Source of the DNA: Rubrivivax gelatinosus IL144
GTDB lineage: Bacteria > Pseudomonadota > Gammaproteobacteria > Burkholderiales > Burkholderiaceae_C
Length of the DNA stretch: 64,000 nt
NCBI RefSeq assembly: GCF_000284255.1
Contig: NC_017075.1
Span: 1,674,001 to 1,738,000, forward strand
Direction: 5' to 3'
A program made the position numbers and the translations under genes. A model generated the notes under the pieces. That model did not search any database and had not been told where the DNA came from. It saw only the letters and a list, made by a program, of their open reading frames with translations. This document shows positions 2,666 through 23,591 of this stretch, one piece after another. Numbering within the stretch: the stretch's first letter is position 1; every line of letters starts with the position of its first letter.

Positions 2666-2688
2666 TAACGGCACTTTCGCGCTATACT
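2662..2688 (+). promoter_or_regulatory. Probable promoter of tRNA-His
   Basis: TATACT at 2683-2688 is a good -10 hexamer, with TTGATA at 2662-2667 as a possible -35. The 15-nt spacing is shorter than ideal. The -10 is placed 17 bp before the tRNA, as expected for a tRNA promoter. Confidence 0.5.
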
Positions 2689-2704
2689 CTCGTTTCTTTG
2701 CTGC

Positions 2705-2781
2705 GGTGGCTGTAGCTCAGTTGGTAGAGTCCCAGATTGTGATTCTGGTCGTCGTGGGTTCGAGTCCCATCAGCCACCCCA
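2705..2781 (+). tRNA. tRNA-His (anticodon GTG)
   Basis: A 77-nt tRNA with the extra G-1 at 2705 typical of tRNA-His, then GTGGCTG pairing with CAGCCAC. The anticodon loop is ATTGTGATT with anticodon GTG. The T-arm contains GGGTTCGAGTCCC, and CCA is encoded at 2779-2781. Its last 17 nt belong to the left attachment repeat of the genomic island, so the island insertion preserved the tRNA sequence. Confidence 0.95.
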
Positions 2782-2788
2782 CCGAATA
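2765..2788 (+). repeat. attL: left 24-bp attachment repeat in tRNA-His
   Basis: The 24 bases from 2765 (TCCCATCAGCC...) to 2788 (...CCGAATA) occur identically at 23592-23615. The first 17 are the 3' end of tRNA-His including CCA; the last 7 are downstream. This is the classic core of a tyrosine-integrase attachment site, and the integrase gene begins about 110 bp inside. Confidence 0.9.
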
Positions 2789-2805
2789 CCGTTAGCGCAC
2801 GCAAG

Positions 2806-2837
2806 GCCTTGATTCCCAACGGAATCAAGGCTTTGTT
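2806..2837 (+). terminator. Terminator for tRNA-His carried by the island
   Basis: GCCTTGATTCC (2806-2816) and GGAATCAAGGC (2821-2831) form an 11-bp stem with loop CAAC and the T-rich tail TTTGTTG. It resembles the terminator after attR at 23633-23663 (core TTCC/GGAA and the surrounding order are shared), suggesting that the island brings a substitute for the displaced tRNA-His terminator. Confidence 0.75.
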
Positions 2838-2896
2838 GCTTCTAGGCTAAACAGCGGTTGCAACACGGTCTGTCACCCAACCTTGTGGAACAGACC

Positions 2897-4624
2897 ATGA
2901 AAGCCATCGCCGAAAACATCTACACCCGCGGCCAGCACGGCATCCAGTACGTGCGCCGTCGCATCCCGGCCGCCATCCGTGCGGCCTATCCCGCCAAGCA
3001 GACGCACATCGTGCGCAGCCTGGGCACTGCCGACCGCCGCTTGGCCAAAGGGCTCGCCAACGCCGAGCTCGCGCGCATCGACGCCGAGTTCAAGCTCAAG
3101 AGCCAACAGCTCGAACTGAGCCGGGCCTCCTTGTCGGCCAAGCGCATCGCCAAGCTCGACGACGAGCAGCTCAAGGGTATCGCCCGTTTCTGGGTGCGGC
3201 AGGTGCTGCTGGCCGACGACCAGCGGCGCCAGGCCGGCCTGGACGATGCCGAGTTCGACGAGCTGGGTGCCGAGCTGTCCGAGCAGCGCGCGCAGCTCGG
3301 TCGCATGCTGGCCCAGGGCAAGAGCATGAGCATGTTCCCCGCCATGCACGGCTTCCTGCACCTGTGCGGCCTGGACTTCGCCCCCGATGAGGCGGAAGCC
3401 AAGCGTGCCGCCTACGTGTTCCTTCGTGCCGTCGTCGAGTCGGTCGACCATCGCCTCGGCCGTCAGCGTGGTGACCTGGTCGATACCGAGGTGGTCGCGC
3501 CGGAGGTGCCGCATCCGCTCCCCGCCGCGGCGCCCGAGCGCGCTCCGGCGAACCTGCGCGCGCCCACCTGGGAGGCGGTCTTCGAGACGTGGCGCGACTA
3601 CGTCGAGAACCGTCCCAAGCCGACGACCATCGCCTCGCAGACTGCCTGGCGTGACCTGCGGGGCTTCGCCGAGGGGCTGGGTGTTCGTCACCCTGGCGCT
3701 GTCACACCCGAACAGATGACCGCCTTCGCCGAGCGCATGCGCGAACGTGGGCTTGCGGTGCCGACCATCAACGAACGCATTCTCAAGGTCCGAGCCATCT
3801 ACAAGATTGCCGTGGGCAAGCACGTGCTGAAGGACAACCCTGCGGCCGGCACCATCGGCTTCAAGCAGGCAGCGGCCCGGCAGCGGCAGAAGCGCCGACT
3901 GTCGTTCGACGCGGCTGACCTGGGCGCCCTGTTCGGCTCGCCCGTGTTCACCGAGCACAAGCGGTCGGTGGGCCAGTCGGGCGAGGCCAGCTACTGGCTC
4001 CCGGTGCTCATGTTCTACACGGGCGCTCGGCCCGAGGAACTGGCTGGCTTGGCCCTGAGCGACCTGCAGCACGACGAGAAGCTGGGCTGGTACCTGAACC
4101 TAATCGACCGGCCCAGCGATGAAGACGCCGACCTGTTCGAGGACGGCGATGTTCCGCAGTCGCATCGGCGGACCCTGAAGAACGCACCGTCGGTGCGTCG
4201 TGTGCCGGTGGCGCAGGAGCTCATCGACCTGGGCCTGCTGCGCTATGCGGAGTGGGTGCGCCAGCGCGGCGCCGCTGTGCTGTTCCCGACGCTGACGAAG
4301 GACAGTCACGGCAAGCTGTCTGGTTCGTTCTCCAAGTTCTTCGGCCGCTACAAGCGTGCCGTGGGCATCACGGACAGCCGCAAGGTGCTGTACTCGTTCC
4401 GGCACACCATGAAGGACATGCTCGAGGCGGCAGCCGTGCCGTCCAAGTACCTGAAGCGGCTGATGGGCCATACCACCGGGGACGGCGCCATCACCGACGG
4501 CTACGGTTCCGACCTGCCGTTCGAGCTGCTGGTCGAGCAGTTCCGCAAGGTCCGCTTTCCTGCCTTGGCCGCCAAGCCGTGGCAGCCAGGGCAAGGCTAC
4601 GTGAGCCTCAAGGTCGAGGCCTGA
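2897..4624 (+). CDS. int: Site-specific tyrosine recombinase (island integrase)
   Basis: A 575-residue integrase that would catalyse integration and excision at the tRNA-His site. The N-terminus (NIYTRGQHGIQYVRRRIP) looks like the DUF6538 domain found before many phage-type integrases. A SAM-like core-binding region lies at about residues 225-320. The catalytic domain has the expected pattern: R378 in GARPEEL, HxxK starting at H503 (SFRHTMK), H525 in MGHTTG, and nucleophile Y536 (DGYG). The ATG at 2897 is preferred to the in-frame TTG at 2858 because MKAIAENIYTRG is the usual family start; the ribosome site is weak. A strong bidirectional terminator follows the stop. Its position beside attL fits an island integrase. 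Confidence 0.93.
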   Translation: MKAIAENIYTRGQHGIQYVRRRIPAAIRAAYPAKQTHIVRSLGTADRRLAKGLANAELARIDAEFKLKSQQLELSRASLSAKRIAKLDDEQLKGIARFWVRQVLLADDQRRQAGLDDAEFDELGAELSEQRAQLGRMLAQGKSMSMFPAMHGFLHLCGLDFAPDEAEAKRAAYVFLRAVVESVDHRLGRQRGDLVDTEVVAPEVPHPLPAAAPERAPANLRAPTWEAVFETWRDYVENRPKPTTIASQTAWRDLRGFAEGLGVRHPGAVTPEQMTAFAERMRERGLAVPTINERILKVRAIYKIAVGKHVLKDNPAAGTIGFKQAAARQRQKRRLSFDAADLGALFGSPVFTEHKRSVGQSGEASYWLPVLMFYTGARPEELAGLALSDLQHDEKLGWYLNLIDRPSDEDADLFEDGDVPQSHRRTLKNAPSVRRVPVAQELIDLGLLRYAEWVRQRGAAVLFPTLTKDSHGKLSGSFSKFFGRYKRAVGITDSRKVLYSFRHTMKDMLEAAAVPSKYLKRLMGHTTGDGAITDGYGSDLPFELLVEQFRKVRFPALAAKPWQPGQGYVSLKVEA

Positions 4625-12625: not shown

Positions 12626-13707
12626 CGGCGCCCCTGCTGGTGCTCCGCGTCGGCTACATGGCGCGTTACGACGGGCCCGACACCATCACCGGCGGCGGCG
12701 CCTACATCACCGCCAATGGCGTGGGCGGCGAGGTCTTCAACTTCAAGCCGAGCCGGGGCAAGTGCTATGGCTACGCGATGAGCCTGCACTTCGCGGGTGT
12801 GAACCTGCGCCGACTAGATGACTCGCGCACCTGGTCGCGTGGCGACGAGCTGGCAGGCGTGGACGTGGTGTTCATCGCCAAGCGGCCCGGCGTGGGCCAG
12901 GTCGTCGTGGGCTGGTATCGCAACGCCACCGTGTTCCATCAACAGTACCGCGTGCGACGGGGCAGCATCCCGGGCATGGCGCCAATGGCGGGCATGTCAG
13001 CCGAGGGCGCCGATACCAGGCGTCAGTTTCTGTGCGTGACCAGTGCGGAGAACGCGTTCTTGCTGCCCGAGGACGAGCGGACCTTCGAGGTGCCCGCCGC
13101 GCAGGCCGGGCACAAGGGGTTCCCGGGCCAGTCCAACGTCTGGTACCCCGGCCACCACGGTGACCAGCCGGGGGTGAAGGCGTTCGCCAAGAAGTTGCAG
13201 CGCTACATCGACACCGCCGCAGCGCAGACACCGGACGACGACGAAGAGCCAAGCAACGGCAGCGGGAAGGGCGGCAGACGAAACGGTCGGCCCGATACGG
13301 CACACAACGCCGCCGTCGAGCAGGCTGCCGTCGATGCCGTGACCGCCCGGCTGGAAGGTCAAGGCTACCTGGTTGCATCTGTCGAGGCGGAGAACAAGGG
13401 CTGGGACCTGGAAGCCACCAAGGGCAAGAAGACGCTCTACGTCGAGGTGAAAGGGACCGCCGGGGCCGCCATCTACTTCGAGCTCACCCCCAACGAGTAC
13501 CGCCGGTTGAGGGAACACGCCGAACGCTATCGCGTGTGCGTGGTGTGCGATGCGCTGGGCGCGCCTCGGGTCTTCGACCTGCTGCCGAGCGAGGGGGCTG
13601 ACGGCTGGGAACTGCGCAGCGAAGACGGCGAGGTCTACGTCCCGCTGATGGAGCGCATCGCAGCCATCGGCGCTGAGGTGCGGCAGGACGAGGAGGCTGC
13701 AGCATGA
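12622..13707 (+). CDS. DUF3883-domain protein, accessory of the restriction operon
   Basis: A 361-residue protein. The C-terminal part (about residues 225-340) matches the DUF3883 pattern: ENKGWDLEATKGKKTLYVEVKG followed by YFELTPNEYRRL, a PD-(D/E)xK nuclease-like fold with D in GWDL and ExK in YVEVKG. The N-terminal 200 residues are not recognised. It overlaps both neighbours by 4 bp, so it is translated with the methylase and helicase-nuclease. It may be a nuclease or a DNA-sensing subunit of the system. Small in-frame proteins of this type between mod- and res-like genes are not part of the textbook type III organisation. Confidence 0.75.
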   Translation: MTAPLLVLRVGYMARYDGPDTITGGGAYITANGVGGEVFNFKPSRGKCYGYAMSLHFAGVNLRRLDDSRTWSRGDELAGVDVVFIAKRPGVGQVVVGWYRNATVFHQQYRVRRGSIPGMAPMAGMSAEGADTRRQFLCVTSAENAFLLPEDERTFEVPAAQAGHKGFPGQSNVWYPGHHGDQPGVKAFAKKLQRYIDTAAAQTPDDDEEPSNGSGKGGRRNGRPDTAHNAAVEQAAVDAVTARLEGQGYLVASVEAENKGWDLEATKGKKTLYVEVKGTAGAAIYFELTPNEYRRLREHAERYRVCVVCDALGAPRVFDLLPSEGADGWELRSEDGEVYVPLMERIAAIGAEVRQDEEAAA

Positions 13708-16700
13708 GCCAAATCAACGCCGTCGAAGCGCCCATCATCAACAGCCCCTACGACCCGCCGGCCTTCCACTGGCACATCGAAGAGGGCAAGCACCCGGAGA
13801 AGCGGCCAGGCCGGCGCTTGGCCTCGTACTTCTTCCGCGTGCCCGACCGCGCGGCGCGCGGGCGCAAGGCCAAGGGCCAGCAGTCGCTGCTGGACGACGC
13901 ATCCAAGGGCCAGGAATACCTGCTGGACCTGGCCAACCTCATCCGCCAGCGGCTGCAGGAGTGGCGCGAGCGCGACTATGCCGGCGCCACCAAGGTCACG
14001 CGGGAACTGCTGGAACTGTGGCGCTCGCCTGACCGTTCGCAGCGGCTGTTCTTCGCCCAGCTCGAAGCAGTGGAGACGGTGCTGTTCCTGGTGGAGGGGC
14101 CGGACGACCTGAAGCAGGGCATCAACGTGCCCAGCGACGAGCCAGGCGACGACGCCAAGGCCGAGGGCTACAAGGCCTTCGTGCGCTATGCGCTGAAGAT
14201 GGCCACGGGCAGCGGCAAGACCACGGTGATGGGCATGCTGTCGGCCTGGTCCATCCTGAACAAGGTGGCCCAGCCGCAGGCCTCGGCCTATTCGGACACG
14301 GTGCTCATCGTGTGCCCGAACGTCACCATCCGCGACCGCCTGCGCGAGCTCGACCCCAACCTGGACGAGCTCAGCCTGTACCGCACCCGGCAACTGGTGC
14401 CGCTGCACCGCATGCCGGACCTGCGCAAGGGCGAGGTCTTCATCACCAACTGGCACAACCTGGAGCGCCGCGAGCTGACCGACGTGAACGGCACGTCGGC
14501 CAAGGTGGTGAAGCGCGGCGTGCCGGTGGAGAAGCTGCGCACCGTGAAGGTGGGCGGCAAGGACGCGGTGACCGAGGCCGACATCCGGCAGCAGGCGCTG
14601 ACCGGGGCCTTCGACATCCTGCGCGAGCTGCGGGACAACAAGGGCCAGCTCACCGGCTTCGAGGTGAAGGAGGTGCGCTACTACGAGAGCGACACCGCCT
14701 TCCTGCGCCGTGTGCTGGGCAACCGCAAGGGGCGCAGCTCGGCCATCCTGGTGATGAACGACGAGGCCCACCACGCCTACCGGCGCGGCAAGCTCGACGC
14801 CGAGGACACCTTCGCCATCGACGAGGAAACGGCCGAGGTAGATGCCCGCGAGGCGACGGTGTGGATTGAAGGCCTGGACCGCATCAACAAGGCGCTGGGC
14901 GGCCGGACCAACGGCGTGCGGCTGTGCGTGGACCTGTCGGCCACGCCGTTCTTCATCCAGGGCAGCGGCAACGAGGTGGGCAAGCCCTTCCCGTGGGTGG
15001 TGTCCGACTTCAGCCTGCTGGAGGCCATCGAAGCCGGCTTGGTGAAGATTCCGCAGCTCCCCACCCAGGACATCGGCGGCACCGAGACGCCGGCCTACTT
15101 CAACGTGTGGCGGTGGGTGCAGGAGATTGCCGAGAAGGAAGGCCACAGCGGCAAACTCACGCCCGACGTGCTGATGCGCTACGCCACGCAGCCCATCGTG
15201 CAACTGGCCGACGAGTGGCGCAAGACGGCCGAGCAGTGGTCGGCGCAGTTCAAGGCCGGCCACCGCAAGACCGACGTGCCGCCGGTCTTCATCATCGTGT
15301 GCCGCGACACCGCGCTGGCCAAGGAGCTGTACGACTGGCTGGCCAATGGCAACCCCACCTACGGCGCGGCGCCTGAGCAGTTCCGCAACGCCCCGGGCCG
15401 GGAATGGACCGTGCGGGTGGACAGCAAGGTGGCCGAGGACATCGCGGAAGGCGGCGGCAAAAACGATGAGGCGCGGCGCCTGCGCTTCGTGCTGGAGACC
15501 ATCGGCAAGACCGGCTGGCCGGGCAACAAGGTGCCCGAAGAGTACGTTGCCATGGTCGAGAAGCACAACCGCAAGGCCCTGGAGGACGACGACAACGGCC
15601 TGGTGACCATCGACGCCAGCGTGCCGCCCGGCCGCGACGTGCGCTGCATCATCAGCGTGGCCATGCTGTCCGAGGGCTGGGACGCCACGACCGTGACGCA
15701 CGTGGTGGGCCTGCGCCCCTTCGGCTCGCAACTGCTGTGCGAACAGGTGGTCGGCCGGGCGCTGCGGCGCACCTCGTACGCGGTGGACGAGGCCACCGGC
15801 TTCTTCCGCGAGGAGACGGCCAAAGTCTTCGGCGTGCCCTTCGAGCTCATCCCGTTCAAGGTGGAGGGCGGTGCCCAGCAGCCGCCGTCACCGCCGGCCA
15901 ACCAGATTTACGCCGTGCCGGCCAAGGCACAGTACGAGCTGGCCTTCCCGGTGGTGGAGGGCTACACCGACCCCGGCGTGACCCGGCTGACCATGGACTG
16001 GCCCAAGGTGCCGACCTTGGAGCTGAACCCCATGACGGTGCCGGACGTGACGCTGATGAAGGGCCTGACCACGCAGGACGGTGCCCTGGCCGCCTACGGG
16101 CCTGGCGCGGCCGACGTGGTGAACCTGGACCAGTGGCGGGCTAAGGTGCGGGTGCAGCAGGTGGCCTTCACGATGGCCAAGGTGCTGACGCAGCAGTGGC
16201 TGGCCGACCGTGGCGATGTCATCCCCACGCACCGCCTGTTCCCGCAACTGCTGGGCTACACGACCCGGTTCCTGGCCGAGAAGCTGAAGCTGTCGGGCAA
16301 CCGGGCGCCGCAGGACGTGGCACTGAACCCGTACTTCCAGCAGGCGGTGGGCATCCTGTTCGACTCGCTGGTGCCGGTGGACGAGAGCGGCAAGACGCAG
16401 GAGCGGCCCATCATCGTGCCGGGCCCGGCGGGCGAGCGCTCGACGCGACACGTCGAGTTCTTCACCGGGCGGCAACCCTGGCCGGTGCAGAAGTGCCACC
16501 TGAACGCCATCGTCGCGGACACGAAGACCTGGGAGCAGGCAGCGGCCACCGCACTGGACGCCCACGAGGGTGTCGCCAAGTGGGTCAAGAACGACCACCT
16601 GGGCTTCATCGTGCCGTATCGCAAGGACGGCATCCGCCGCCGCTACCTGCCCGACTTCATCGTGGACCTGACGACGGGCGAGCGCCTGATGGTCGAGGTG

Positions 16701-16859
16701 AAGGGCCAGCCCGGTGACGCCGAGGTGAAGGCCCAGGCCGCGCACCGCTGGTGCACCGCCGTCAACAACGACGGGCGCTTCGGGCGGTGGAGCTATCACA
16801 TCGTCCGGCAGCCGCCGGACCTGATGAAGCTGCTCGACAAGCTGACTGGCGTCATCTGA
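13704..16859 (+). CDS. Type III-like restriction subunit: superfamily 2 helicase with C-terminal PD-(D/E)xK nuclease
   Basis: A 1051-residue protein. Walker A ATGSGKTT starts at residue 167 and the DEAH box is at 353-356. Helicase motif VI is in LLCEQVVGRALRR after motif V-like SEGWDATTVTHVVG. A C-terminal nuclease motif has D984 (LPDF) and E998-V-K1000 (MVEVKG). Together these are the translocating and cutting parts expected of a Res subunit, probably dependent on the upstream methylase for specificity. The ATG overlaps the DUF3883 stop. A long hairpin 14 bp after the stop probably ends the operon. It resembles the restriction endonuclease group NCBI calls the BPTD_3080 family, but I cannot confirm this without a search. 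Confidence 0.88.
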   Translation: MSQINAVEAPIINSPYDPPAFHWHIEEGKHPEKRPGRRLASYFFRVPDRAARGRKAKGQQSLLDDASKGQEYLLDLANLIRQRLQEWRERDYAGATKVTRELLELWRSPDRSQRLFFAQLEAVETVLFLVEGPDDLKQGINVPSDEPGDDAKAEGYKAFVRYALKMATGSGKTTVMGMLSAWSILNKVAQPQASAYSDTVLIVCPNVTIRDRLRELDPNLDELSLYRTRQLVPLHRMPDLRKGEVFITNWHNLERRELTDVNGTSAKVVKRGVPVEKLRTVKVGGKDAVTEADIRQQALTGAFDILRELRDNKGQLTGFEVKEVRYYESDTAFLRRVLGNRKGRSSAILVMNDEAHHAYRRGKLDAEDTFAIDEETAEVDAREATVWIEGLDRINKALGGRTNGVRLCVDLSATPFFIQGSGNEVGKPFPWVVSDFSLLEAIEAGLVKIPQLPTQDIGGTETPAYFNVWRWVQEIAEKEGHSGKLTPDVLMRYATQPIVQLADEWRKTAEQWSAQFKAGHRKTDVPPVFIIVCRDTALAKELYDWLANGNPTYGAAPEQFRNAPGREWTVRVDSKVAEDIAEGGGKNDEARRLRFVLETIGKTGWPGNKVPEEYVAMVEKHNRKALEDDDNGLVTIDASVPPGRDVRCIISVAMLSEGWDATTVTHVVGLRPFGSQLLCEQVVGRALRRTSYAVDEATGFFREETAKVFGVPFELIPFKVEGGAQQPPSPPANQIYAVPAKAQYELAFPVVEGYTDPGVTRLTMDWPKVPTLELNPMTVPDVTLMKGLTTQDGALAAYGPGAADVVNLDQWRAKVRVQQVAFTMAKVLTQQWLADRGDVIPTHRLFPQLLGYTTRFLAEKLKLSGNRAPQDVALNPYFQQAVGILFDSLVPVDESGKTQERPIIVPGPAGERSTRHVEFFTGRQPWPVQKCHLNAIVADTKTWEQAAATALDAHEGVAKWVKNDHLGFIVPYRKDGIRRRYLPDFIVDLTTGERLMVEVKGQPGDAEVKAQAAHRWCTAVNNDGRFGRWSYHIVRQPPDLMKLLDKLTGVI

Positions 16860-17221
16860 AACGACGTCACGCCGTAACGGTGCCGGGTGACCACCACCCG
16901 GATACCGTTACCGCGTGACCACCACCCACGAATAACCAAAGTCCTTCAGACCAGAAGCGGTTGCAGAAAACCTGTTCTGAGAACCGAAGAAGAAGCCGCC
17001 CTGCGGGCGGCTGTCGCCCGGTGAAGAGCACCCGCAAGGCAGGGGGGCCTGGGCTGGGGGCGACGCGAGGGCGGGCCTGGCCCGCCCCGTGTCAGGCAGG
17101 CTGAAGCCTGCAGAAGCGCGCGAGTGTGACGAGCGTCTGGCCCGGTGCCGGGCTCAAGTCCCTGCCCGTCGGGCCGATACCTGCGTGACGGAAGGCACCG
17201 GCCCAACAGTCACAAACTCTC
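16860..17221. other. Non-coding region after the restriction operon
   Basis: No gene is supported. It holds the 16874-16911 hairpin, a second stem GCCGCCC/GGGCGGC (16995-17011) and GC-rich repeats. A second copy of GTGACCACCACCC (16887-16899 and 16915-16927) overlaps the first hairpin. Confidence 0.5.
16874..16911 (+). terminator. Probable terminator of the restriction operon
   Basis: GTAACGGT...CCGGGTG (16874-16889) pairs with CACCCGG...ACCGTTAC (16895-16911), about 15 pairs with one small interior mismatch and a 5-nt loop. There is no T-run, so it may instead be an operator or an mRNA 3' stabiliser. Confidence 0.45.
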
Positions 17222-17674
17222 ATGCCCCAACGCTCGTACACCTGGTTGCTGCTGACCTTCGCCGGGGCCTTCCTGTTCTTCGGCGGCTTGCTGTTCAACC
17301 CGGGCATTCGTGTCTTCGGCAAGCCGGTGGACCTCTTGGCCATTCTGGTCGGCCCCGTGGTGTTCCTGGTCGGTGTTGTCTGGGCGCTGGTGCTTGCGGT
17401 GCAGAGCCTGCGCGGGCCAGGCAGCCTGAGCCAGCGCCTGGGCTTGACTGCCCCTGCGAGGTACGCCCCAGGCGATGACGACGACGGTCACCGCCGGCGG
17501 CACGGCAGCAATGACCGCCGCGGGCCGGCGGTCAACGTTGACGGTACGCCCATGGCCACCGGCCATGTGGACGTGAACGGGAATGCCTATGGCTTCTCCG
17601 ACCACCGTCACGATGCTGGCGGCTTCTCCAGCGGCGGTTCGTTCGGCGGCGGATTCAGCAACTCTCGTTGGTGA
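17222..17674 (+). CDS. Small two-helix membrane protein with Gly/Ser-rich tail
   Basis: A 150-residue protein of unknown function. Two hydrophobic helices lie at about residues 7-25 (WLLLTFAGAFLFFGGLLF) and 38-63 (LLAILVGPVVFLVGVVWALVLAV). A polar, Asp/His/Arg-rich stretch follows, and the tail is FSSGGSFGGGFS. The ATG at 17222 gives a natural N-terminus (MPQRSYTW). Its 3' end overlaps the convergent winged-helix gene by 67 bp. It is the only plus-strand gene between the restriction operon and the regulators. I do not recognise a family. Confidence 0.6.
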   Translation: MPQRSYTWLLLTFAGAFLFFGGLLFNPGIRVFGKPVDLLAILVGPVVFLVGVVWALVLAVQSLRGPGSLSQRLGLTAPARYAPGDDDDGHRRRHGSNDRRGPAVNVDGTPMATGHVDVNGNAYGFSDHRHDAGGFSSGGSFGGGFSNSRW

Positions 17675-18105
17675 CCGCCATCCGTCGCTGATGGCGCTGC
17701 CCTCTGAGCCAGCGCGCGGCGCTGCTGCCGCGCCAGCTTGCGTGACGTGATTTCGGCTGCACCGTCCTTGATGCGCTGGCGGTCGGGGCACAGGAACAGC
17801 ACCTTGAAGCCTTGGCCAAGCGGCTCTCGGCGGATGAGGCCCAGCGTTTCCAGGTCAGCGAGATGGCCGCGGACAGCCCGCTCGTCCTTGCCCGTGAGCT
17901 TGGCGATGTGCGGCCCAGCGTAGGTCGTGTTTCCCTCGTAGTGGCAGGAGGCGAGAGCGAGGTACACATACATGGCCGCGTTGTCGATGCAGTCGACCAC
18001 GTTGAACAGCATCGCCCGCGGCAGGCAGAAGTACCCGCCCTTGCCGTAGCGCTCGAACCAGCGGTCGTTCTCGGTGCTGGCGATGCGGTTGCGAGGGCGC
18101 TTCAT
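17608..18105 (-). CDS. Winged-helix DNA-binding protein, possibly a replication initiator or regulator
   Basis: A 165-residue protein. The centre (about residues 55-95) reads as a winged helix: a helix around HIAKLTGKDERAVRGHLADLETLGLIRRE, then a wing with GFKVLFLCP. The N-terminus (ENDRWFERYGKGGYFCLPRAML) resembles helix-turn-helix proteins of plasmids and islands. The C-terminus is Pro-rich and disordered. Its start overlaps the AlpA-like gene stop (ATGA), so the two form an operon, and its 3' end overlaps the convergent membrane-protein gene. Regulation of excision or replication is the likely role (inference). Confidence 0.65.
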   Translation of the reverse strand: MKRPRNRIASTENDRWFERYGKGGYFCLPRAMLFNVVDCIDNAAMYVYLALASCHYEGNTTYAGPHIAKLTGKDERAVRGHLADLETLGLIRREPLGQGFKVLFLCPDRQRIKDGAAEITSRKLARQQRRALAQRAAPSATDGGHQRELLNPPPNEPPLEKPPAS

Positions 18106-18293
18106 GCCTGGCCCCCTTCGGTGAGCTCGCGTTCCAGCCAGGCTTCAACCTCGGCCACGTCGAAGAACGACAGCCGGCTGCCTGCCAGGTGGCGCGGGGC
18201 GGGGAATGCGCGCTGCGCAATCCAGTTTTCCAGGGTGCGGGTCGAGACGCCGAGGGCTTCGACCAGCGCGGACTTGGGGATGAACTTGTCCAT
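18102..18293 (-). CDS. AlpA/MerR-type excisionase-like regulator
   Basis: A 63-residue helix-turn-helix protein. The segment PKSALVEALGVSTRTLENWIAQRAFPAPRHLAGSR is the AlpA/excisionase pattern, followed by FFDVAEVEAWLERE. Small proteins of this class activate integrase or excision genes in satellites such as P4 and in islands. The start at 18293 is chosen because GGAG lies just upstream and the product then begins MDKFIPKSAL; the frame continues open upstream to 18530 without family similarity. Its stop overlaps the winged-helix gene start. Confidence 0.8.
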   Translation of the reverse strand: MDKFIPKSALVEALGVSTRTLENWIAQRAFPAPRHLAGSRLSFFDVAEVEAWLERELTEGGQA

Positions 18294-18387
18294 CGAGATG
18301 CTCCAGGTGACGGGTGCGCCCGTCGGGCGAAGCGCGGCGGAACTGCCGGCTCGATGGAGTGAAGCCCCCCGTTTTAGCCTTCGCGCA

Positions 18388-18409
18388 ATGACGCGCAGGC
18401 ACTCGGGAC
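18388..18409 (+). repeat. Imperfect direct repeat, copy 1
   Basis: 22 bases, ATGACGCGCAGG... ending CGGGAC, match 19392-19413 at 20 of 22 positions. The pair brackets the winged-helix gene 18464-19357. Confidence 0.55.
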
Positions 18410-18463
18410 GGCGGTGGCCGGCGAGACGGTGGCTAGACAGTGGACCTACCACCGGAAGCCACC

Positions 18464-19357
18464 ATGAAAGTCTCGACCTCCGACTTGCAGGGCGTGCTGG
18501 GCGCCACGCCCGCCGCCGCGCCACCATCACGCGCGCCGCGACAAACCAACAGCCGCAGCGGGCGCGAGCAGGCCCGCATCAACGAGCTGAAGTGCATGCG
18601 TGTCGTCGCCCACCATGGACACGTCCGCATCGCCGAGCTGGCCCGCGCCGTCTGGCCCAAGGCGCGATACGCCGAGCAGGTCAGTAGGCGCGTTGCCAGC
18701 CGGCTGGTCGCCGAGGGCCTGCTGCTGGAACGCCGTAACGCGCTGGGCTCGCGCAGCCTGTGCCTGACCCGTGTCGGCGCAACCTGGCTGGAGGCCCGGG
18801 GCATCGAGGCGCAGCACACGCTAGACCTGTCGAGCGTGTCCGGCAGCACTTTCTTCCACCGAACTCTCGCCACGCGTTACCTCATTGAACGCCAGGTCGA
18901 GGGCTTCCAGACCGCAGGGGAGTACCTGCTGCTGCGGCGCAAGGCGCCGTTCCCGGTGGACCGGATGGTGAAGATGCTGCGCAAGATGCCAGACGGTGCT
19001 GTCTGGCAGCGCCGCGCCGACGGGCCGGCGACGGTGGAGGTGTGCGAGGTCGAGGCCGCCCGCAAGGCGCTGCCGCAGCTCGCGGCCTGCCTGCGGTGGG
19101 CAGAGCTCGTCGGCCAGCCGCTCGACCAGGCCGGCGCCTACCGGCTTGGAGGCTTGGTCTTCGTCTACGACCGCGAGCTGAACCATGCCCGCCGCATCCT
19201 GCTGGCCGCGACTTCGCTGTGGGGCCACCGACCCTTGCAGGAACGCGTAACGCTGGAACGCCGGGTCAAGCTCGTCGCGGTCGAGCTGCGCGACCCGCTG
19301 GTGTGGGTCGGTTCCAGCGTGACGACGTTACACGACCTGAGGCAGCGCGCCGTTTAA
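18464..19357 (+). CDS. Winged-helix protein, replication-relaxation-like
   Basis: A 297-residue protein. Residues about 45-105 form a winged helix: ARINELKCMRVVAHHGHVRIAELARAVWP, then QVSRRVASRLVAEGLLLERR and a wing with SRSLCLTRVG. The remainder contains FFHRTLATRYLI and a Glu-rich strand (TVEVCEVEAARK), as in replication-relaxation family proteins of mobile elements, which also have a nuclease-like core. The match is by eye only. The ATG at 18464 is used because the product then begins MKVSTSDL. It is divergent from the AlpA-like gene, followed by a terminator at 19496, and flanked by the 22-bp direct repeat. Confidence 0.55.
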   Translation: MKVSTSDLQGVLGATPAAAPPSRAPRQTNSRSGREQARINELKCMRVVAHHGHVRIAELARAVWPKARYAEQVSRRVASRLVAEGLLLERRNALGSRSLCLTRVGATWLEARGIEAQHTLDLSSVSGSTFFHRTLATRYLIERQVEGFQTAGEYLLLRRKAPFPVDRMVKMLRKMPDGAVWQRRADGPATVEVCEVEAARKALPQLAACLRWAELVGQPLDQAGAYRLGGLVFVYDRELNHARRILLAATSLWGHRPLQERVTLERRVKLVAVELRDPLVWVGSSVTTLHDLRQRAV

Positions 19358-19391
19358 AACCTGGGAGCTACCCTAGGTAGACCCTCAGACG

Positions 19392-19413
19392 ATGACCCGC
19401 AGGCAATCGGGAC
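19392..19413 (+). repeat. Imperfect direct repeat, copy 2
   Basis: Second copy of the 22-base repeat at 18388-18409, with two substitutions, 34 bp after the stop of the winged-helix gene. Confidence 0.55.
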
Positions 19414-19495
19414 CAGCTGATTAGGCGCGTTCCCGCGCGCCCGTTCGTGGCCTCGGCCCCGTCCGGAAAATGCACTGTACGGCCCCGCAAGGGGG

Positions 19496-19525
19496 GAGAG
19501 GCGCCTTCGGGCGCCTCTCTTGTTT
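19496..19525. terminator. Bidirectional terminator between the winged-helix gene and RT1
   Basis: GAGAGGCGCC (19496-19505) and GGCGCCTCTC (19510-19519) form a perfect 10-bp stem with a stable TTCG loop and tail TTGTTT. It lies between convergent genes and ends just after the end of the extended RT1 frame at 19541. Confidence 0.8.
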
Positions 19526-19540
19526 ACGACCGTTGCCAGG

Positions 19541-19702
19541 TTAGGTCGCCCGCGCCACGGGTCGAAGAATCTGCGCGGCCTCTTGCTGGCGTCCACGCAG
19601 CTGGCGGCCGAGCTTCGCTCGCTCATCGCCGTCTGCGGCGACGTATGCGGAACGGGTCTCATGCAGCTTTCGATGGCGCTCGTTTGGCAGCCGCAGTTCT
19701 TA
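19541..19702 (-). pseudogene. In-frame continuation of RT1 beyond a TAA: probable RT thumb region
   Basis: After the TAA at 19700-19702 the same frame runs for 52 codons to a TAA at 19541-19543. The peptide begins ELRLPNERHRKLHETRSAY and continues DERAKLGRQLRGRQQEAAQ. This looks like the segment following the VTG motif in retron RTs (xLPxxRxRKL, then a helical DERxxLxxxLxGRxxEAAQ). One substitution in the TAA codon would restore a 293-residue enzyme. It may be a nonsense mutation, a sequencing error or a recoded stop. Confidence 0.7.
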
Positions 19703-20422
19703 ACCGACGATGACCGCGCCGGTGACACTCTTAGGCGCGCCGGCAGCGAAGGTGGCCGACTTCTTGCCCTTGGACTTCAAGCCATGGCGAGCAATGAGCA
19801 TGCGTACTTCACCCAGTAGGCGCTTCGTGGCGTTCGGACCTGAGAGCGCGATGTCATCGACGTAGATGGTCAGTTTGCAGCCTGAGGCAACTGCGAGCTT
19901 GGCGATGTCCTCGAACAGCCCCCTCGCGGCGAAGAATGCCACCCGGCCGCTCAGCGGACTTCCGGTAGGCAGATGCAGTTGCCTGTAGCAACAGATGTCG
20001 GCCAGCCGGTCCGCGACATCGGCGGCGCACTCGAAGTCGCGCACGAACATCCGGAACACCATGGCCCGGGTCACGCTTGGATAGAACTTGTTGATGTCGG
20101 TCTTGATGACCGGGTGGTTACCGAGGTGCTGCCGCGCGTTGTCCGCATACGAACGGCCCTTCTGCGAGAACACGTAGTCCGGGACCTCAATGCGTGCGAG
20201 CAGGTCGGCGATGACCTTGTGCACTGCCGCCATCCAATGGATGGGCGCCTGGATTTCCCGGTCCTTCGGCCCCTTCCAGACCCGAAAAGATTCGGCAGCC
20301 AGAAGGTCCGTCACCGACTCCCATTTGACGCCGATGACGTCCTCAAACCGCCCCTTGCCGCGCAAGCGGAAGAGCGGCGACTGATTCAGCGCGTAGGCCT
20401 TACGCGGCGCGCTCGACGGCAT
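19700..20422 (-). CDS. Retron-type reverse transcriptase (RT1), ends early at a TAA
   Basis: A 240-residue RNA-directed DNA polymerase as read. The two retron hallmarks are visible: NARQH at residues 95-99 (NAxxH) and VTG at 233-235. The first catalytic Asp is in KTDINKFYPS, the QG/SP region is LPTGSPLSG, and the active site is YVDD at 187-190. The ATG at 20422 has AGGAA five bases upstream and overlaps the XRE gene by 23 bp; a TTG at 20443 is an alternative. It is shorter than typical retron RTs because the thumb-like segment lies after the TAA (see 19541-19702). It is the last gene of a minus-strand operon: small peptide, XRE, RT. It would be expected to copy a dedicated non-coding RNA, probably from the structured leader 20899-21168. 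Confidence 0.85.
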   Translation of the reverse strand: MPSSAPRKAYALNQSPLFRLRGKGRFEDVIGVKWESVTDLLAAESFRVWKGPKDREIQAPIHWMAAVHKVIADLLARIEVPDYVFSQKGRSYADNARQHLGNHPVIKTDINKFYPSVTRAMVFRMFVRDFECAADVADRLADICCYRQLHLPTGSPLSGRVAFFAARGLFEDIAKLAVASGCKLTIYVDDIALSGPNATKRLLGEVRMLIARHGLKSKGKKSATFAAGAPKSVTGAVIVG

Positions 20423-20708
20423 CGCGTTCCTGAAGCCACTCAAGCAGCCTCAGTATCTTGTCCGCCGCCGCCACCCGCAGCTTCGCCCCGGGCTTTCGGT
20501 CCTCATTGATGGACTCCGAGAACAAGAGGATGGAGGACACGGGCATCTTGAAAACCTCGGAATACCGCTCCAGCAGGTCCAGCCCGGGCGTCTTGTCGCC
20601 TTTCTCCAGCTCGCTCAGGTACGAGTTGGAAATCCCAAGGCGCTTGGCCAGCTCCACTTGGGTGTACTGGTGGTAGGTCCGAAGCAGCTTCAGGGCGCGA
20701 TTCAACAT
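20400..20708 (-). CDS. XRE-family helix-turn-helix regulator of the RT1 module
   Basis: A 102-residue Cro/C1-type protein. Residues about 5-60 form the fold: LKLLRTYHQYTQVELAKRLGISNSYLSELEKGDKTPGLDLLERY, with the recognition helix around NSYLSELE. The C-terminus (about 75-100) is a helix with LRLLEWLQERDAVE. The start at 20708 has GAGAGG upstream; the frame is open to 20765, but that part is not XRE-like. It lies 37 bp after the small gene and overlaps RT1 by 23 bp. It probably represses the operon through the palindrome at 21211-21227; alternatively it is an effector-like HTH as in some retrons. Confidence 0.88.
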   Translation of the reverse strand: MLNRALKLLRTYHQYTQVELAKRLGISNSYLSELEKGDKTPGLDLLERYSEVFKMPVSSILLFSESINEDRKPGAKLRVAAADKILRLLEWLQERDAVERAA

Positions 20709-20745
20709 GGCATGCCTCTCGAATTTGAAATAAAGGGGTGACGAA

Positions 20746-20898
20746 TCACCGAAGCAGGAAGTCAATCAGCTTGGCGACCATCGAGACGAGCCGGACCACC
20801 GCGGTGGCCAGGCGGAACGTCTCGGGACGCACCCACCAGGACTTCTTGCGTTGCTTCTTCGTCGCCCGCCGCTGAGGAGGCTTCAGAACGTCACTCAT
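20746..20898 (-). CDS. Small cationic amphipathic/membrane peptide of the RT1 module
   Basis: 50 codons. The N-terminus is strongly basic (RRATKKQRKKS), followed by WWVRPE and a helix from about residue 27 to 50 with R29, R36, K43 and R50 exactly seven residues apart, so the charges fall on one face. The core AVVRLVSMVAKLIDFL aligns with ALVQLITAIVNAVFNY of the RT2 partner. It starts behind GAAAGGAATCGTC, an AAAGGA ribosome site. It is the first gene of the RT1 operon. A toxin-like membrane-active effector or an RT/RNA-binding partner is possible. It is too short for any confident family call. Confidence 0.65.
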   Translation of the reverse strand: MSDVLKPPQRRATKKQRKKSWWVRPETFRLATAVVRLVSMVAKLIDFLLR

Positions 20899-21168
20899 GA
20901 CGATTCCTTTCGGCTGCACCAAACAACGCACACGGGATGTGTGCGCCGTGGCTGTCGCCCGCAACCGAACAGAGCAAAGCGGCGAGTTGACCCCCTTCAC
21001 TTCCAGATGCCTGCCCGGGGTCGCCCGGGCAGGCTCGCACCGGCCCCAACCGTACCGCGCACCGGAGGACCGGCACCGTGCGGCGTGGGCTTGCGAGTAG
21101 TTAGAGCCTTTCGGCCCCACAGGGTGCTGTAGCACCCCAACAGTCGACAGTTATCTCTGTCAGCCTCG
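20899..21168 (-). ncRNA. Candidate structured leader RNA of the RT1 module (possible msr-msd)
   Basis: About 270 nt between the proposed transcription start and the small gene. Read on the minus strand it holds successive hairpins: GACAG/CTGTC, GGGTGC/GCACCC with loop TACA, GGGCC/GGCTC capped by a GAAA tetraloop, a wobble-containing GTGCCGG/CCGGTGC, an 11-bp GCCTGCCCGGG/CCCGGGCAGGC with loop CGAC (around 21008-21033), TCGCC/GGCGA, and CGCACAC/GTGTGCG. Retron RNAs precede the RT genes and are similarly folded. I could not find convincing a1/a2 end repeats inside the transcript. Confidence 0.5.
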
Positions 21169-21174
21169 GGGCGG

Positions 21175-21204
21175 AGTGTAGCCGAAGAACTTCGCCCAGC
21201 GCAA
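21175..21204 (-). promoter_or_regulatory. Probable promoter of the RT1 module
   Basis: On the minus strand TTGCGC (21204-21199) and TACACT (21180-21175) are separated by 18 bp. Transcription would begin near 21168, just before the structured leader. The palindrome 21211-21227 lies immediately upstream of the -35. Confidence 0.5.
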
Positions 21205-21210
21205 GTTGTG

Positions 21211-21227
21211 TTTCGCTGTCAGCGAAA
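21211..21227. promoter_or_regulatory. 17-bp palindromic operator candidate
   Basis: TTTCGCTGTCAGCGAAA is a perfect palindrome of 8-bp arms around a central base. It sits between the divergent RT1 operon and ardC, next to the RT1 promoter, which is an ideal position for a dimeric XRE repressor such as the product of 20400-20708. Confidence 0.65.
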
Positions 21228-21435
21228 TTTCGATATGACCCTGCTAAGGGGTCTCCCCTCGCGCCGCGCAACCGTCCGCACGCTGCGGCGTGCCCTCCGG
21301 CCTGGCATCCCCAGCTTCCTGTCGTGCAGCCGGGGTGTGCCCCTTCCAGGCCTGCGGCGGTTGCGCTCTTCTACCCCCGGTCTCGCCGACGGGCACGGGG
21401 TGCCACACGCACCCCCAGCCCTAAAGGAGCAAGTC
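21228..21435. other. ardC upstream region
   Basis: About 210 bp with no gene. Contains small GC-rich hairpins (for example GGGG-TCT-CCCC around 21250). No clear promoter hexamers were seen. A good ribosome site AAAGGAGC lies at 21423-21430. Confidence 0.4.
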
Positions 21436-22341
21436 ATGGAAGGCAAGCAACAGCAGCGCGACCTCTACGCCGAGGTCACCCGTCGAATCGTCGAGGCCCT
21501 GGACCGGGGCGTCCGCCCCTGGTCGTGCCCGTGGTCCCGTGGCGCCGCCAGCGGCGGCATGCTGCCCCGCCGGCACGGCGGCGAGCCGTATCGTGGCGTG
21601 AATGTTCTGCTGCTGTGGGGCGCAGCGATGGAACGCGGCTTCACATCGCGCACCTGGTTGACCTACCGCCAGGCCGAGGCGCTGGGCGGGCAGGTTCGCA
21701 AGGGCGAGCGCGGCACGATGGTGGTCTATGCCGGTCAGTTCAGCCCCAGCAAGGAGGGCACCGAGGCGGTCGAAGGCGAAGCCCCGGCACGGCGGGCGGT
21801 GGCTTTCCTGCGCAGCTACACGGTCTTCAACACCGAGCAGGTGGATGGGCTGGCTGCGCCAGCCGCACCCGAGGTGCCCGCGGCCATCCAGCCCGACGCC
21901 GACGCGCTGGCCCTGGTGGCGCGGGCAGGCGCGACGGTTCGCCACGGCGGCGACCGCGCGTTCTACGCACCGGGGCCTGACCTCGTGCAGATGCCCGATG
22001 CTTCGCGTTTCCGCGATGCCGCCGCGTACTTCGGCACCCTGGCGCACGAGCTCGTGCACTGGACCGGCCACCCGGACCGCCTGGCGCGCCAGTTCGGCCA
22101 GCGCTTCGGCGACCAGGCCTACGCGATGGAAGAGCTCGTTGCCGAGCTCGGCGCCGCCTTCGTGTGCGCCGGCAGCCGGCTCAGCCCGGAACCGCGTGAG
22201 GACCATGCCGCGTACCTGGCCGCGTGGCTGGCCGTGCTGAAGCACGACAAGCGCGCCATCTTCACCGCCGCCGCTCAGGCCCAGCGGGCGGCCGACCTGC
22301 TGTGCGGCGTCGAGTCGGCGCAGGTCGAGGGCAGCCCGTAA
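21436..22341 (+). CDS. ardC: ArdC-family antirestriction protein
   Basis: A 301-residue protein. The N-terminal ssDNA-binding domain starts DLYAEVTRRIVEALDRGVRPW and contains PYRGVNVLLLW and KGERGTMVVYAG; it ends near residue 135 with YTVFNTEQV. The C-terminal metallopeptidase-like domain has HELVH (H204, E205, H208) and a downstream acidic MEELVAELGAAF. ArdC proteins protect incoming DNA from host restriction during transfer. The ATG at 21436 has AAAGGAGC upstream; the frame is open to 21208 without family similarity. It lies between two minus-strand RT modules and ends at a perfect bidirectional terminator. Confidence 0.93.
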   Translation: MEGKQQQRDLYAEVTRRIVEALDRGVRPWSCPWSRGAASGGMLPRRHGGEPYRGVNVLLLWGAAMERGFTSRTWLTYRQAEALGGQVRKGERGTMVVYAGQFSPSKEGTEAVEGEAPARRAVAFLRSYTVFNTEQVDGLAAPAAPEVPAAIQPDADALALVARAGATVRHGGDRAFYAPGPDLVQMPDASRFRDAAAYFGTLAHELVHWTGHPDRLARQFGQRFGDQAYAMEELVAELGAAFVCAGSRLSPEPREDHAAYLAAWLAVLKHDKRAIFTAAAQAQRAADLLCGVESAQVEGSP

Positions 22342-22372
22342 CGCGAAAGGCGCCCATCGGGCGCCTTTCGCG
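22342..22372. terminator. Bidirectional terminator between ardC and RT2
   Basis: CGCGAAAGGCGCCC and GGGCGCCTTTCGCG form a perfect 14-bp stem with a 3-nt ATC loop. It begins directly after the ardC stop and 15 bp before the RT2 stop. Confidence 0.85.
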
Positions 22373-22387
22373 GACATGTCCGGCCTG

Positions 22388-23149
22388 TCAGGGCAACGAG
22401 TCCGCCTGAACCGGGTTCACGCTGCGCACGTAGCCCTGAATGCCCGCGCGTTGCAGTTCGCTCGTCGAGGCCTGGAAGGCTTCACGAAACTCGGCCAGCT
22501 TCGGTGGCAGGACCGAAAGCGGAGTACCTGCCGCAAGTTCGATGTTGAACGCGGAGATGGTTGCCGCCGGGCCCTGTTCCTTGTCGTCGCTGAAGGCGAG
22601 GCGCGACCGCTGCGCTTTGGTCTTCATCGTCGTCAGCACGTCACCTAGTTCTTCGGGGTCGTTACCCGACACGATGATGTCGTCGACGTACACGGTGACG
22701 ACGACGCTGTTCTCGCGATGCAGTTGGTCGAGGTACTTGCCCAGCCCGCTTTTGTGCAACGCGAGCGAGGCCAGCAGCGGCGACTGGACGAACCCATATG
22801 GCAGGATTTGCCGGGCTGGGTCTTCGGGATGTTGAACCGTGCTCGCCGTTGCAATCCGTCTGGCCTCCGCGTGGCTGACGAACTCCTTCAGCACGCGCGA
22901 GATGCGGGAGCGACTGACTGAGCCGAAGAAGTCGGCGATGTCGACCTTGACGAAGCAGGTGCTTCGTTGGTGGCGCATCAGTGCGGCGACGTGGCCTCCC
23001 TGCCGCAGGTGAAAGTAGTAGCTTGGGGCCTTCCAGTGGGACTCGACGAGCTCTTTGACCTCGACGCCCTCTGCGCGCGCTTCAGGGGAAGGCTCGAAAA
23101 CCCAACGACCTGGCTTTCGCTCAAACTTGTGCAGCCACTTCGCGGGCAT
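22388..23149 (-). CDS. Second reverse transcriptase (RT2), non-retron type
   Basis: A 253-residue RNA-directed DNA polymerase. The first catalytic Asp is D70 in VKVDIADFFGS, the SP region is YGFVQSPLLASLAL, and the active site is YVDD at 154-157. FSDDKEQ and ISAFNIEL follow, and the thumb-like end GIQGYVRSVNPVQA closes the protein. Neither NAxxH nor VTG is present, so it is not a canonical retron RT; it is more like the unassigned or DRT-type RTs used in phage defence (inference). No extra maturase, nuclease or integrase domain is seen. Its start lies 29 bp inside the preceding small gene, implying translational coupling; no clear ribosome site of its own was found. Confidence 0.85.
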   Translation of the reverse strand: MPAKWLHKFERKPGRWVFEPSPEARAEGVEVKELVESHWKAPSYYFHLRQGGHVAALMRHQRSTCFVKVDIADFFGSVSRSRISRVLKEFVSHAEARRIATASTVQHPEDPARQILPYGFVQSPLLASLALHKSGLGKYLDQLHRENSVVVTVYVDDIIVSGNDPEELGDVLTTMKTKAQRSRLAFSDDKEQGPAATISAFNIELAAGTPLSVLPPKLAEFREAFQASTSELQRAGIQGYVRSVNPVQADSLP

Positions 23150-23264
23150 TGGCTAGCTGATAGTTGAAGACCGCGTTCACGATGGCAGTGATGAGTTGCA
23201 CAAGTGCAATGCCCATCCCAAACCAATCGCGAACAGGGCGGTCGTTGGGACGTTTCTTCTTCAT
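23121..23264 (-). CDS. Small basic, single-helix membrane peptide of the RT2 module
   Basis: 47 codons: MKKKRPNDRP, then WFGMGIALVQLITAIVNAVF, a hydrophobic helix at about residues 14-33, and a polar tail. The helix aligns with that of the 50-residue RT1 partner (polar Q23 and N30 match R36 and K43 there). It starts behind GAAAGGAATCGTTGAG, the same 12-base leader sequence as the RT1 partner. The gene overlaps RT2 by 29 bp. Function unknown; a membrane-acting effector controlled by the RT is a reasonable hypothesis. Confidence 0.65.
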   Translation of the reverse strand: MKKKRPNDRPVRDWFGMGIALVQLITAIVNAVFNYQLANAREVAAQV

Positions 23265-23315
23265 CTCAACGATTCCTTTCACAACCCTGGCGCGCCCAGC
23301 GCGCAAGCGCGCGGA

Positions 23316-23344
23316 TATTCAGCTAACCAATATGGCGCTGCCAA
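23316..23344 (-). promoter_or_regulatory. Probable promoter of the RT2 module
   Basis: On the minus strand TTGGCA (23344-23339) and TGAATA (23321-23316) are 17 bp apart. The 5' leader would be about 45 nt and contains a GCGCG/CGCGC hairpin (around 23297-23310) before the ribosome site. Confidence 0.4.
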
Positions 23345-23591
23345 CAGGGATACACCAAGTTGACCAGGACGCCTACAGGAGGTCACAGAGTGACAGTGAA
23401 AGGTGACTGCAGGTAGCCGGGGGGCCGCCTACCGCCAGGGCACCGCAAATCTAGCACATCGGTCCCGGGTTTGGCGACCTTGCCAGGCGCTTGCCGTGCG
23501 CTCGGTCCTGTCACACAATCTGATGCACAGACCTGTGTTGCGTCGGCTCTAAGTGCCTGTGAGAGCTGGGGTTTCGCGGTGGCCAATGGTC
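23345..23591. other. Non-coding end of the island between the RT2 promoter and attR
   Basis: No gene is seen. On the minus strand there are hairpins GTCAC/GTGAC (around 23383-23395) and GGTAG/CTACC (around 23410-23431), and the palindrome CACAGACCTGTG at 23525-23536. It could hold integrase arm sites or an RT2-associated RNA. Confidence 0.4.

Follow-up and report, generated by a model that had tools for sequence, protein, structure and literature searches.

A type VI retron and an adjoining, candidate retron-like cassette with a small helical peptide in Rubrivivax gelatinosus IL144

Our analysis concerns a 64,000-nucleotide (nt) stretch of Rubrivivax gelatinosus IL144 (contig NC_017075.1, positions 1,674,001 to 1,738,000; hereafter the window), which carries two reverse transcriptase (RT) genes in separate minus-strand operons. 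One operon reads pep1-HTH-RT1 (19700-20898), with a helix-turn-helix (HTH) gene in the middle, and the other pep2-RT2 (22388-23264). With moderate confidence, we read these as two adjoining retron-type cassettes on one mobile-looking stretch: a type VI retron around RT1 and a distinct, unnamed retron-like type around RT2, in which a small peptide is proposed to be restrained by an RT particle. In the RT2 cassette, a non-coding RNA (ncRNA), a peptide gene and an RT gene form a conserved three-part unit, with a fixed order and conserved pairing in the RNA. A sequence-only reading of this DNA had placed both RTs (19700-20422 and 22388-23149) and a small frame ahead of each (20746-20898 and 23121-23264) on the minus strand, and all four were found there. 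Absent from that reading were the structured RNA upstream of pep2 and the stop codon of RT1, which lies inside the match to the RT_VI profile.

Results

The RT2 cassette begins with a conserved RNA that lies upstream of the peptide gene throughout the RT2 family, measures 140-210 nt and has ends that pair over 7-8 base pairs. In the window it occupies 23278..23450 on the minus strand and, as modelled, ends 13 nt before the start codon of pep2. Its a1-like 5′ arm (23434..23440) pairs with an a2-like 3′ arm (23285..23291). An extended -10-like promoter element may lie just upstream (23449..23458, minus strand), since the alignment holds a similar TGCTAG-AT stretch in the nearest relatives, and the parts of the cassette are apparently carried on one transcript. 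Covariation was examined in two alignments of genome and plasmid loci, A2 (25 beta-, gamma- and zetaproteobacterial sequences) and A3 (30 alphaproteobacterial sequences). Together they omit 18 of 67 genome loci, namely near-duplicates, loci with short upstream DNA, L013 (for which the window's row stands in), the fragmentary or broken L064, L068 and L077, and the divergent L038, L041, L043 and L050. In both alignments RNAalifold proposed, unprompted, a stem joining the two ends. This terminal stem has 7 pairs in A2 (96.6% of cells paired; changes on both sides in 5 of the 7) and 8 in A3 (95.4% paired; changes on both sides in 6). Its covariation scores lie above all 500 shuffles, which ignore the relatedness of the sequences, and above every slid control, which does not.

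Covariance models R1 and R2 were then built from A2 and A3. R1 matches the window once only, at 109.8 bits, its row having been part of the training alignment. None of the 34 viral loci was used in model building, and R1 matches 32 of them, several being near-copies of one another; R2 matches one more, each match lies a little upstream of the RT, and L169 was missed. R1 also finds the E. coli and Klebsiella phage copies (51.6 bits). When 16 of the left-out genome loci were searched (L013 and L077 excluded), 12 were found, several of them near-copies of training rows and two, L038 and L041, only weakly; L043, L050, L064 and L068 gave no match to either model. Against 64 loci with RTs of type VI or other kinds, R1 gave no hit at E up to 1. 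Rfam returned two tRNAs and a chance miRNA match only. Directly 3′ of the first arm, 24 of the 25 A2 rows have UAG and one has CAG, so that AG is present in 25/25; the UAG of the window stands at 23429-23431. We take this triplet to match the classical retron branch site. These observations suggest that the RT2 cassette has its own retron-like ncRNA with end pairing of the a1/a2 type.

The same RNA could instead be a type I-like antitoxin or a 5′ regulator of the peptide, with the RT serving a separate role and no DNA being templated. The 13 nt between RNA and peptide gene would suit such a regulator, and small hydrophobic toxins controlled by an RNA are already known (PMC8309996). Nevertheless, the RNA and the RT travel together, the catalytic residues of the RT are kept in every full-length family member (see below), and terminal pairing is typical of retron RNAs. 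We consider this explanation improbable.

The second part of the cassette is pep2 (23121..23264, minus strand), a 47-codon gene whose product has a basic start, one hydrophobic helix and a conserved Asn-Tyr near its end. A profile search at E 0.01 placed such a frame, of roughly 40-65 amino acids (aa), just before the RT in 95 of 105 loci (L064 and L077 were excluded), and in 67 of the 77 loci outside the profile-building set, some of these being near-copies of building rows. Of the ten loci without a match, several hold a comparable, lower-scoring frame at the expected position. On 2765 control segments of the same loci the profile gave no match at E 0.01 and three at E below 1. The peptides of the family have, for the most part, a basic start and a single helix, and their Tyr, usually part of Asn-Tyr, is nearly invariant. 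The ratio of nonsynonymous to synonymous differences (pN/pS), pooled over 11 separate peptide pairs, was 0.47, with single pairs reaching 1.27; the pooled value fits a translated gene under selection. Annotation tends to miss the gene: nine of the opened records are annotated and reach far enough upstream, and two of them include it, in each case as a hypothetical protein; the gene tables of the plasmids are incomplete. In the E. coli member, a 57-aa 'hypothetical protein' precedes a 257-aa RT. In Pfam and PHROGs the only match for pep2 was to one PHROG (E 0.076). In L145-L148 (about 2348-3259) no stop separates the peptide frame from the RT frame, a natural fusion or a read-through form.

The third part is RT2 (22388..23149, minus strand), which overlaps the end of pep2 and encodes a compact protein of 253 aa with a YVDD motif (Pfam RVT_1, 64 bits). 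RTs of this family are about 250 aa long. The catalytic [YF]xDD is present in 96 of 96 full-length members, counted among 107 loci after 11 short, broken or cut ones were dropped. A protein search with RT2 gave 461 matches at E 1e-3 or better; among the 120 listed, names, where given, were reverse transcriptase or hypothetical protein, and none was retron. A profile search matched retron RT chains at E of about 2e-11. Comparison of the predicted structure of RT2 (predicted local distance difference test, pLDDT, 97.1) with known folds placed retron RTs nearest, and RT2 is thus predicted to have a retron-like fold with a catalytic YxDD.

A tree of 68 RTs resolved the 33 members of the RT2 family and the 20 of type VI as two groups, each with support of 100/99; the tree includes ret_L084, which has a very long branch and is probably read in the wrong frame. 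NCBIfam gave RT2 retron matches only, all far below their cut-offs. No HTH gene was found near RT2-family RTs below E 0.12 when a profile built from four type VI HTH proteins was run over about 700 nt on each side of 96 loci. Judged by these sequence comparisons, the RT2 clade is separate from type VI and fits no PADLOC or NCBIfam family well.

Turning to the first cassette, retron type VI reportedly belongs to the classification of Mestre et al. RT1 (19700..20422, minus strand) matches PADLOC RT_VI at 2.2e-66 (222 bits), the next best family reaching 6.8e-30, and groups in the tree with 19 other type VI RTs. The HTH gene upstream (20400..20708, minus strand) encodes an Xre-type DNA-binding protein that matches PADLOC HTH_VI at 7.4e-36 and Pfam HTH_3. 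Among 43 type VI loci with enough upstream DNA, 41 have an HTH gene, and in 40 of these 41 a profile census found a small helical peptide frame before it; outside the profile-building set the frame was present in 20 of 21 loci, some of them near-copies. The 50-codon pep1 (20746..20898, minus strand) is therefore the usual small gene of type VI, which agrees with the 'small auxiliary proteins' already ascribed to type VI retrons in PMC8541194. The RT, HTH and small auxiliary genes all match, and from these profile matches the RT1 cassette is identified as a type VI retron.

Searches of Pfam and PHROGs gave no match for pep1; the peptide of the type VI locus L122 is covered by PHROG families 15287 and 5826, annotated as of unknown function. 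The region upstream of pep1 (20899..21200, minus strand), where the ncRNA of a type VI retron would be expected, is partly conserved and hairpin-rich in the nearest relatives, and R1 gives no match there. RT1 itself is not intact, as the RT_VI profile match runs on through its early stop codon. The frames of L013 and L015 are open at this position, so this copy of RT1 is probably inactive or misread, and the stop probably represents a recent loss or a sequencing error.

Two other loci deserve mention. L083 (900-1502) has an Xre-like HTH frame before an RT_VI match, and in place of a short peptide a 79-aa frame whose C-terminal segment is hydrophobic stands ahead of the HTH frame; this may be a further variant. 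In L085 (1076-2430) the RT matches RT_V and RT_VI nearly equally, and a 108-codon frame with a hydrophobic end precedes it.

The presence of a small peptide in both operons had led the sequence-only reading to propose one system, defined by a homologous peptide common to two RT lineages. Part of that proposal stands. The two small frames occur more often than expected by chance and are conserved RT partners, and profile searches of RT neighbourhoods, as it had suggested, found helices of roughly 40-65 residues beside two well-supported RT clades. A basic start and one helix are indeed common to both peptides, and the profile-profile comparison of the families (hhalign) gave a P of 0.0027. The best ungapped 16-mer of pep1 against pep2 scores 25; when the pep2 helix was shuffled 1000 times, only 6 versions reached that value. 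On the other hand, the same score was reached by 95 of 580 cross-family peptide pairs, the hhalign probability was only 11% and BLASTP gave no match, so that relatedness of the two peptides has not been demonstrated. The helix register on which the claim had rested proved weaker than described, with 3 identities and 9 positive scores in 16 and a total of 15, and only a minority of RT2-family peptides have the Trp that was said to be shared. In the 18-mer comparison pep2 is the more hydrophobic (0.69, against 0.44 for pep1) and pep1 the more amphipathic (moment 0.52, against 0.28 for pep2). Separate RT clades and the failure of the RT2-type ncRNA model to match any type VI locus tried also speak against a single system. 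Distant homology of pep1 and pep2 is possible from their sequences; convergence of small helices is enough to explain their likeness, and we regard a single peptide-defined system as improbable. The claim that no such system had been described failed for RT1, whose small gene had already been noted for type VI; the RT2 type is unnamed in the databases searched.

The RT2 cassette is widely distributed. Family loci comprised 67 from one-per-species genomes, nine plasmid records (six regions opened), 34 viral contigs and 13 Klebsiella phage records, 12 of them of equal length. The viral loci were found by alignment-based scans; scans of the viral contigs with single proteins gave no match. A search of 5426 complete E. 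coli genomes gave matches to the cassette in 33, with at least 80% of its length covered in 28. L176 (E. coli CV839-06, 2852-3975) carries a whole RT2-type cassette between ogr and ssrA, among P2-type prophage genes. Within the window's own class the RT2 family was detected at E 1e-20 in 2 of 274 genomes, the window's own included, and an RT_VI match at E 1e-10, a looser set, in 23 of 274.

Both operons are also present in the nearest relatives: L013 (Ideonella alba) shares 99.8% DNA identity across 4.2 kb, and L015 (Roseateles subflavus) 93.7% across 4.1 kb. Between the two operons of the window, on the opposite strand, lies an ArdC-type antirestriction gene recognized by Pfam. This gene, a large helicase-like frame and a small AlpA-like frame flank both cassettes (13704-22341). 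From their translations, the helicase-like frame is presumed to resemble a type III restriction subunit and the small frame to be AlpA-like. The stretch with both cassettes looks like a mobile, defence-rich element.

Discussion

We predict that RT2 binds its own ncRNA and, priming from within it, reverse-transcribes a portion into a short single-stranded DNA; such a product is suggested by the anatomy of the RNA, the fold of the RT and its intact YVDD. By analogy with retrons, the RT-RNA-DNA particle would hold the co-encoded peptide inactive. A phage that disturbed the particle would free the peptide, which would enter the inner membrane and stop the cell, an abortive-infection defence. This last step is suggested by the size, hydrophobicity and basic start of the peptide and by the carriage of the cassette in prophages. 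Our reading of RT2 is thus that of an unnamed retron-like type, with a membrane-active peptide as the likely effector. More tentatively, with a confidence a little short of an even chance, we suggest that RT2 founds an unnamed retron type that occurs across Proteobacteria, plasmids and prophages and uses a membrane-active peptide of roughly 40-65 residues as its effector. To our knowledge, such a peptide would be the smallest retron effector.

The action of the peptide is the weakest link of this mechanism, and a cofactor role is its main rival. The peptide would then be a partner of the RT, as a folding or RNA-binding cofactor or a translation-coupled leader, and any defence would come from the DNA product alone. 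Such a partnership would fit the peptide gene, which mostly overlaps or abuts the RT start where frame ends could be read, as well as the open frame of L145-L148 and the Asn-Tyr codons of L007, which by coordinates lie over a possible RT start. However, L022 and L034 retain an Asn-Tyr that lies clear of the RT start, and in type VI, whose peptide is alike in size and character, the HTH gene stands between peptide and RT. Fusion to the RT is also known for some retron effectors, as in the single-gene models of PADLOC. We think it rather unlikely that the peptide is only a cofactor.

Several results weigh against a retron-like RT2 with a toxic peptide. The best PADLOC score of RT2, 53.8 bits for RT_VI, is nearly tied by the CRISPR-associated RT model at 53.6. 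NAxxH and VTG are hallmark motifs of retron RTs; RT1 has both (NARQH and VTG), RT2 has neither, as the sequence-only reading had recognized, and in the RT2 family they occur in only 5 of 96 and 1 of 96 members. In the fold comparison of RT2, the CART-CAPP RT domain lies within 0.3 Z of the twelfth retron row, and group II-like RTs and those of diversity-generating retroelements within 0.7 Z. One of the covariation measures for A2, further pair types, stays within the range of its shuffles (307 of 500 as high). A G follows the first arm in only 18 of the 30 alphaproteobacterial rows, so a conserved branch G is not established; a bolder variant would have the conserved Tyr of the peptide, not a branch G, prime DNA synthesis where the RNA lacks the G. 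Net charge ranged from -1 to +7 in the eight RT2-type peptides measured, so not all are basic. No peptide of either family matches a toxin family well: Pfam TisB_toxin matched 1 of 20 type VI peptides (E 0.028) and, with E allowed up to 1, not one of the 29 RT2 peptides. Structure prediction of a peptide-RT pair, which had also been suggested, did not dock the peptide onto the RT with confidence when the natural fusion was modelled (pLDDT 41-62 there). Finally, many loci are near-copies (for example L145-L147, or L156, L158, L159 and L171), and the counts are therefore not independent events.

Comparison with known systems helps to place the RT2 cassette. It shares with retron type VI the order of genes, a small basic helical peptide first and the RT last, and carriage on viral contigs. 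It differs in having no HTH gene, in its far lower RT_VI score than the 222 bits of RT1, in its separate clade and in its RNA model, which finds none of the type VI loci. Most retron effectors known to date are enzymes or membrane proteins of larger size. Compared with retrons of solved structure (Ec86/Eco1, Ec83, Eco7/Ec78, Eco8 and Eco2), which have a large effector, RT2 is shorter, lacks NAxxH and VTG and has a peptide of roughly 40-65 aa as its partner. A membrane-acting effector is proposed both here and for Ec48-like type IV retrons, which we compared by RT score only. The type IV effector is a two-transmembrane protein; the RT2 peptide is one short helix, and RT2 scores only 33.8 bits against RT_IV. 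TisB-like type I toxin peptides resemble the RT2 peptide in being short hydrophobic helices with plausible membrane action, but are not known to have an RT partner. DRT2 and DRT9 are defence RTs with an ncRNA and, like the RT2 cassette, combine an RT with such an RNA. Taken together, the RT2 cassette has the anatomy of a retron, its RT is divergent and its partner unusually small, and we class it as a retron variant outside type VI.

A description of the RT2 cassette was not found in the open-access literature, including the available portions of PMC12548924 and PMC8934634; Mestre 2020 was outside this scope, and its catalogue may contain the RT2 clade under another label. The accessible parts of two accounts of P2-phage hotspots (PMC9122126 and PMC9519451) do not name an RT2-type gene. 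An S. Typhi gene, said in PMC4409374 to be 99% similar to the E. coli RT, has been named there as a diagnostic marker.

Conclusion

If the proposed mechanism is true, an effector of about 50 residues would make the RT2 cassette a minimal, easily synthesised tripartite defence. Its RT of about 250 aa and RNA of about 170 nt would add more compact RTs for DNA production in cells. The cassette would also offer a way to test how a particle of RT and multicopy single-stranded DNA restrains a bare helix. Together with type VI, it would mean that retron RTs have been coupled twice to tiny peptide toxins.

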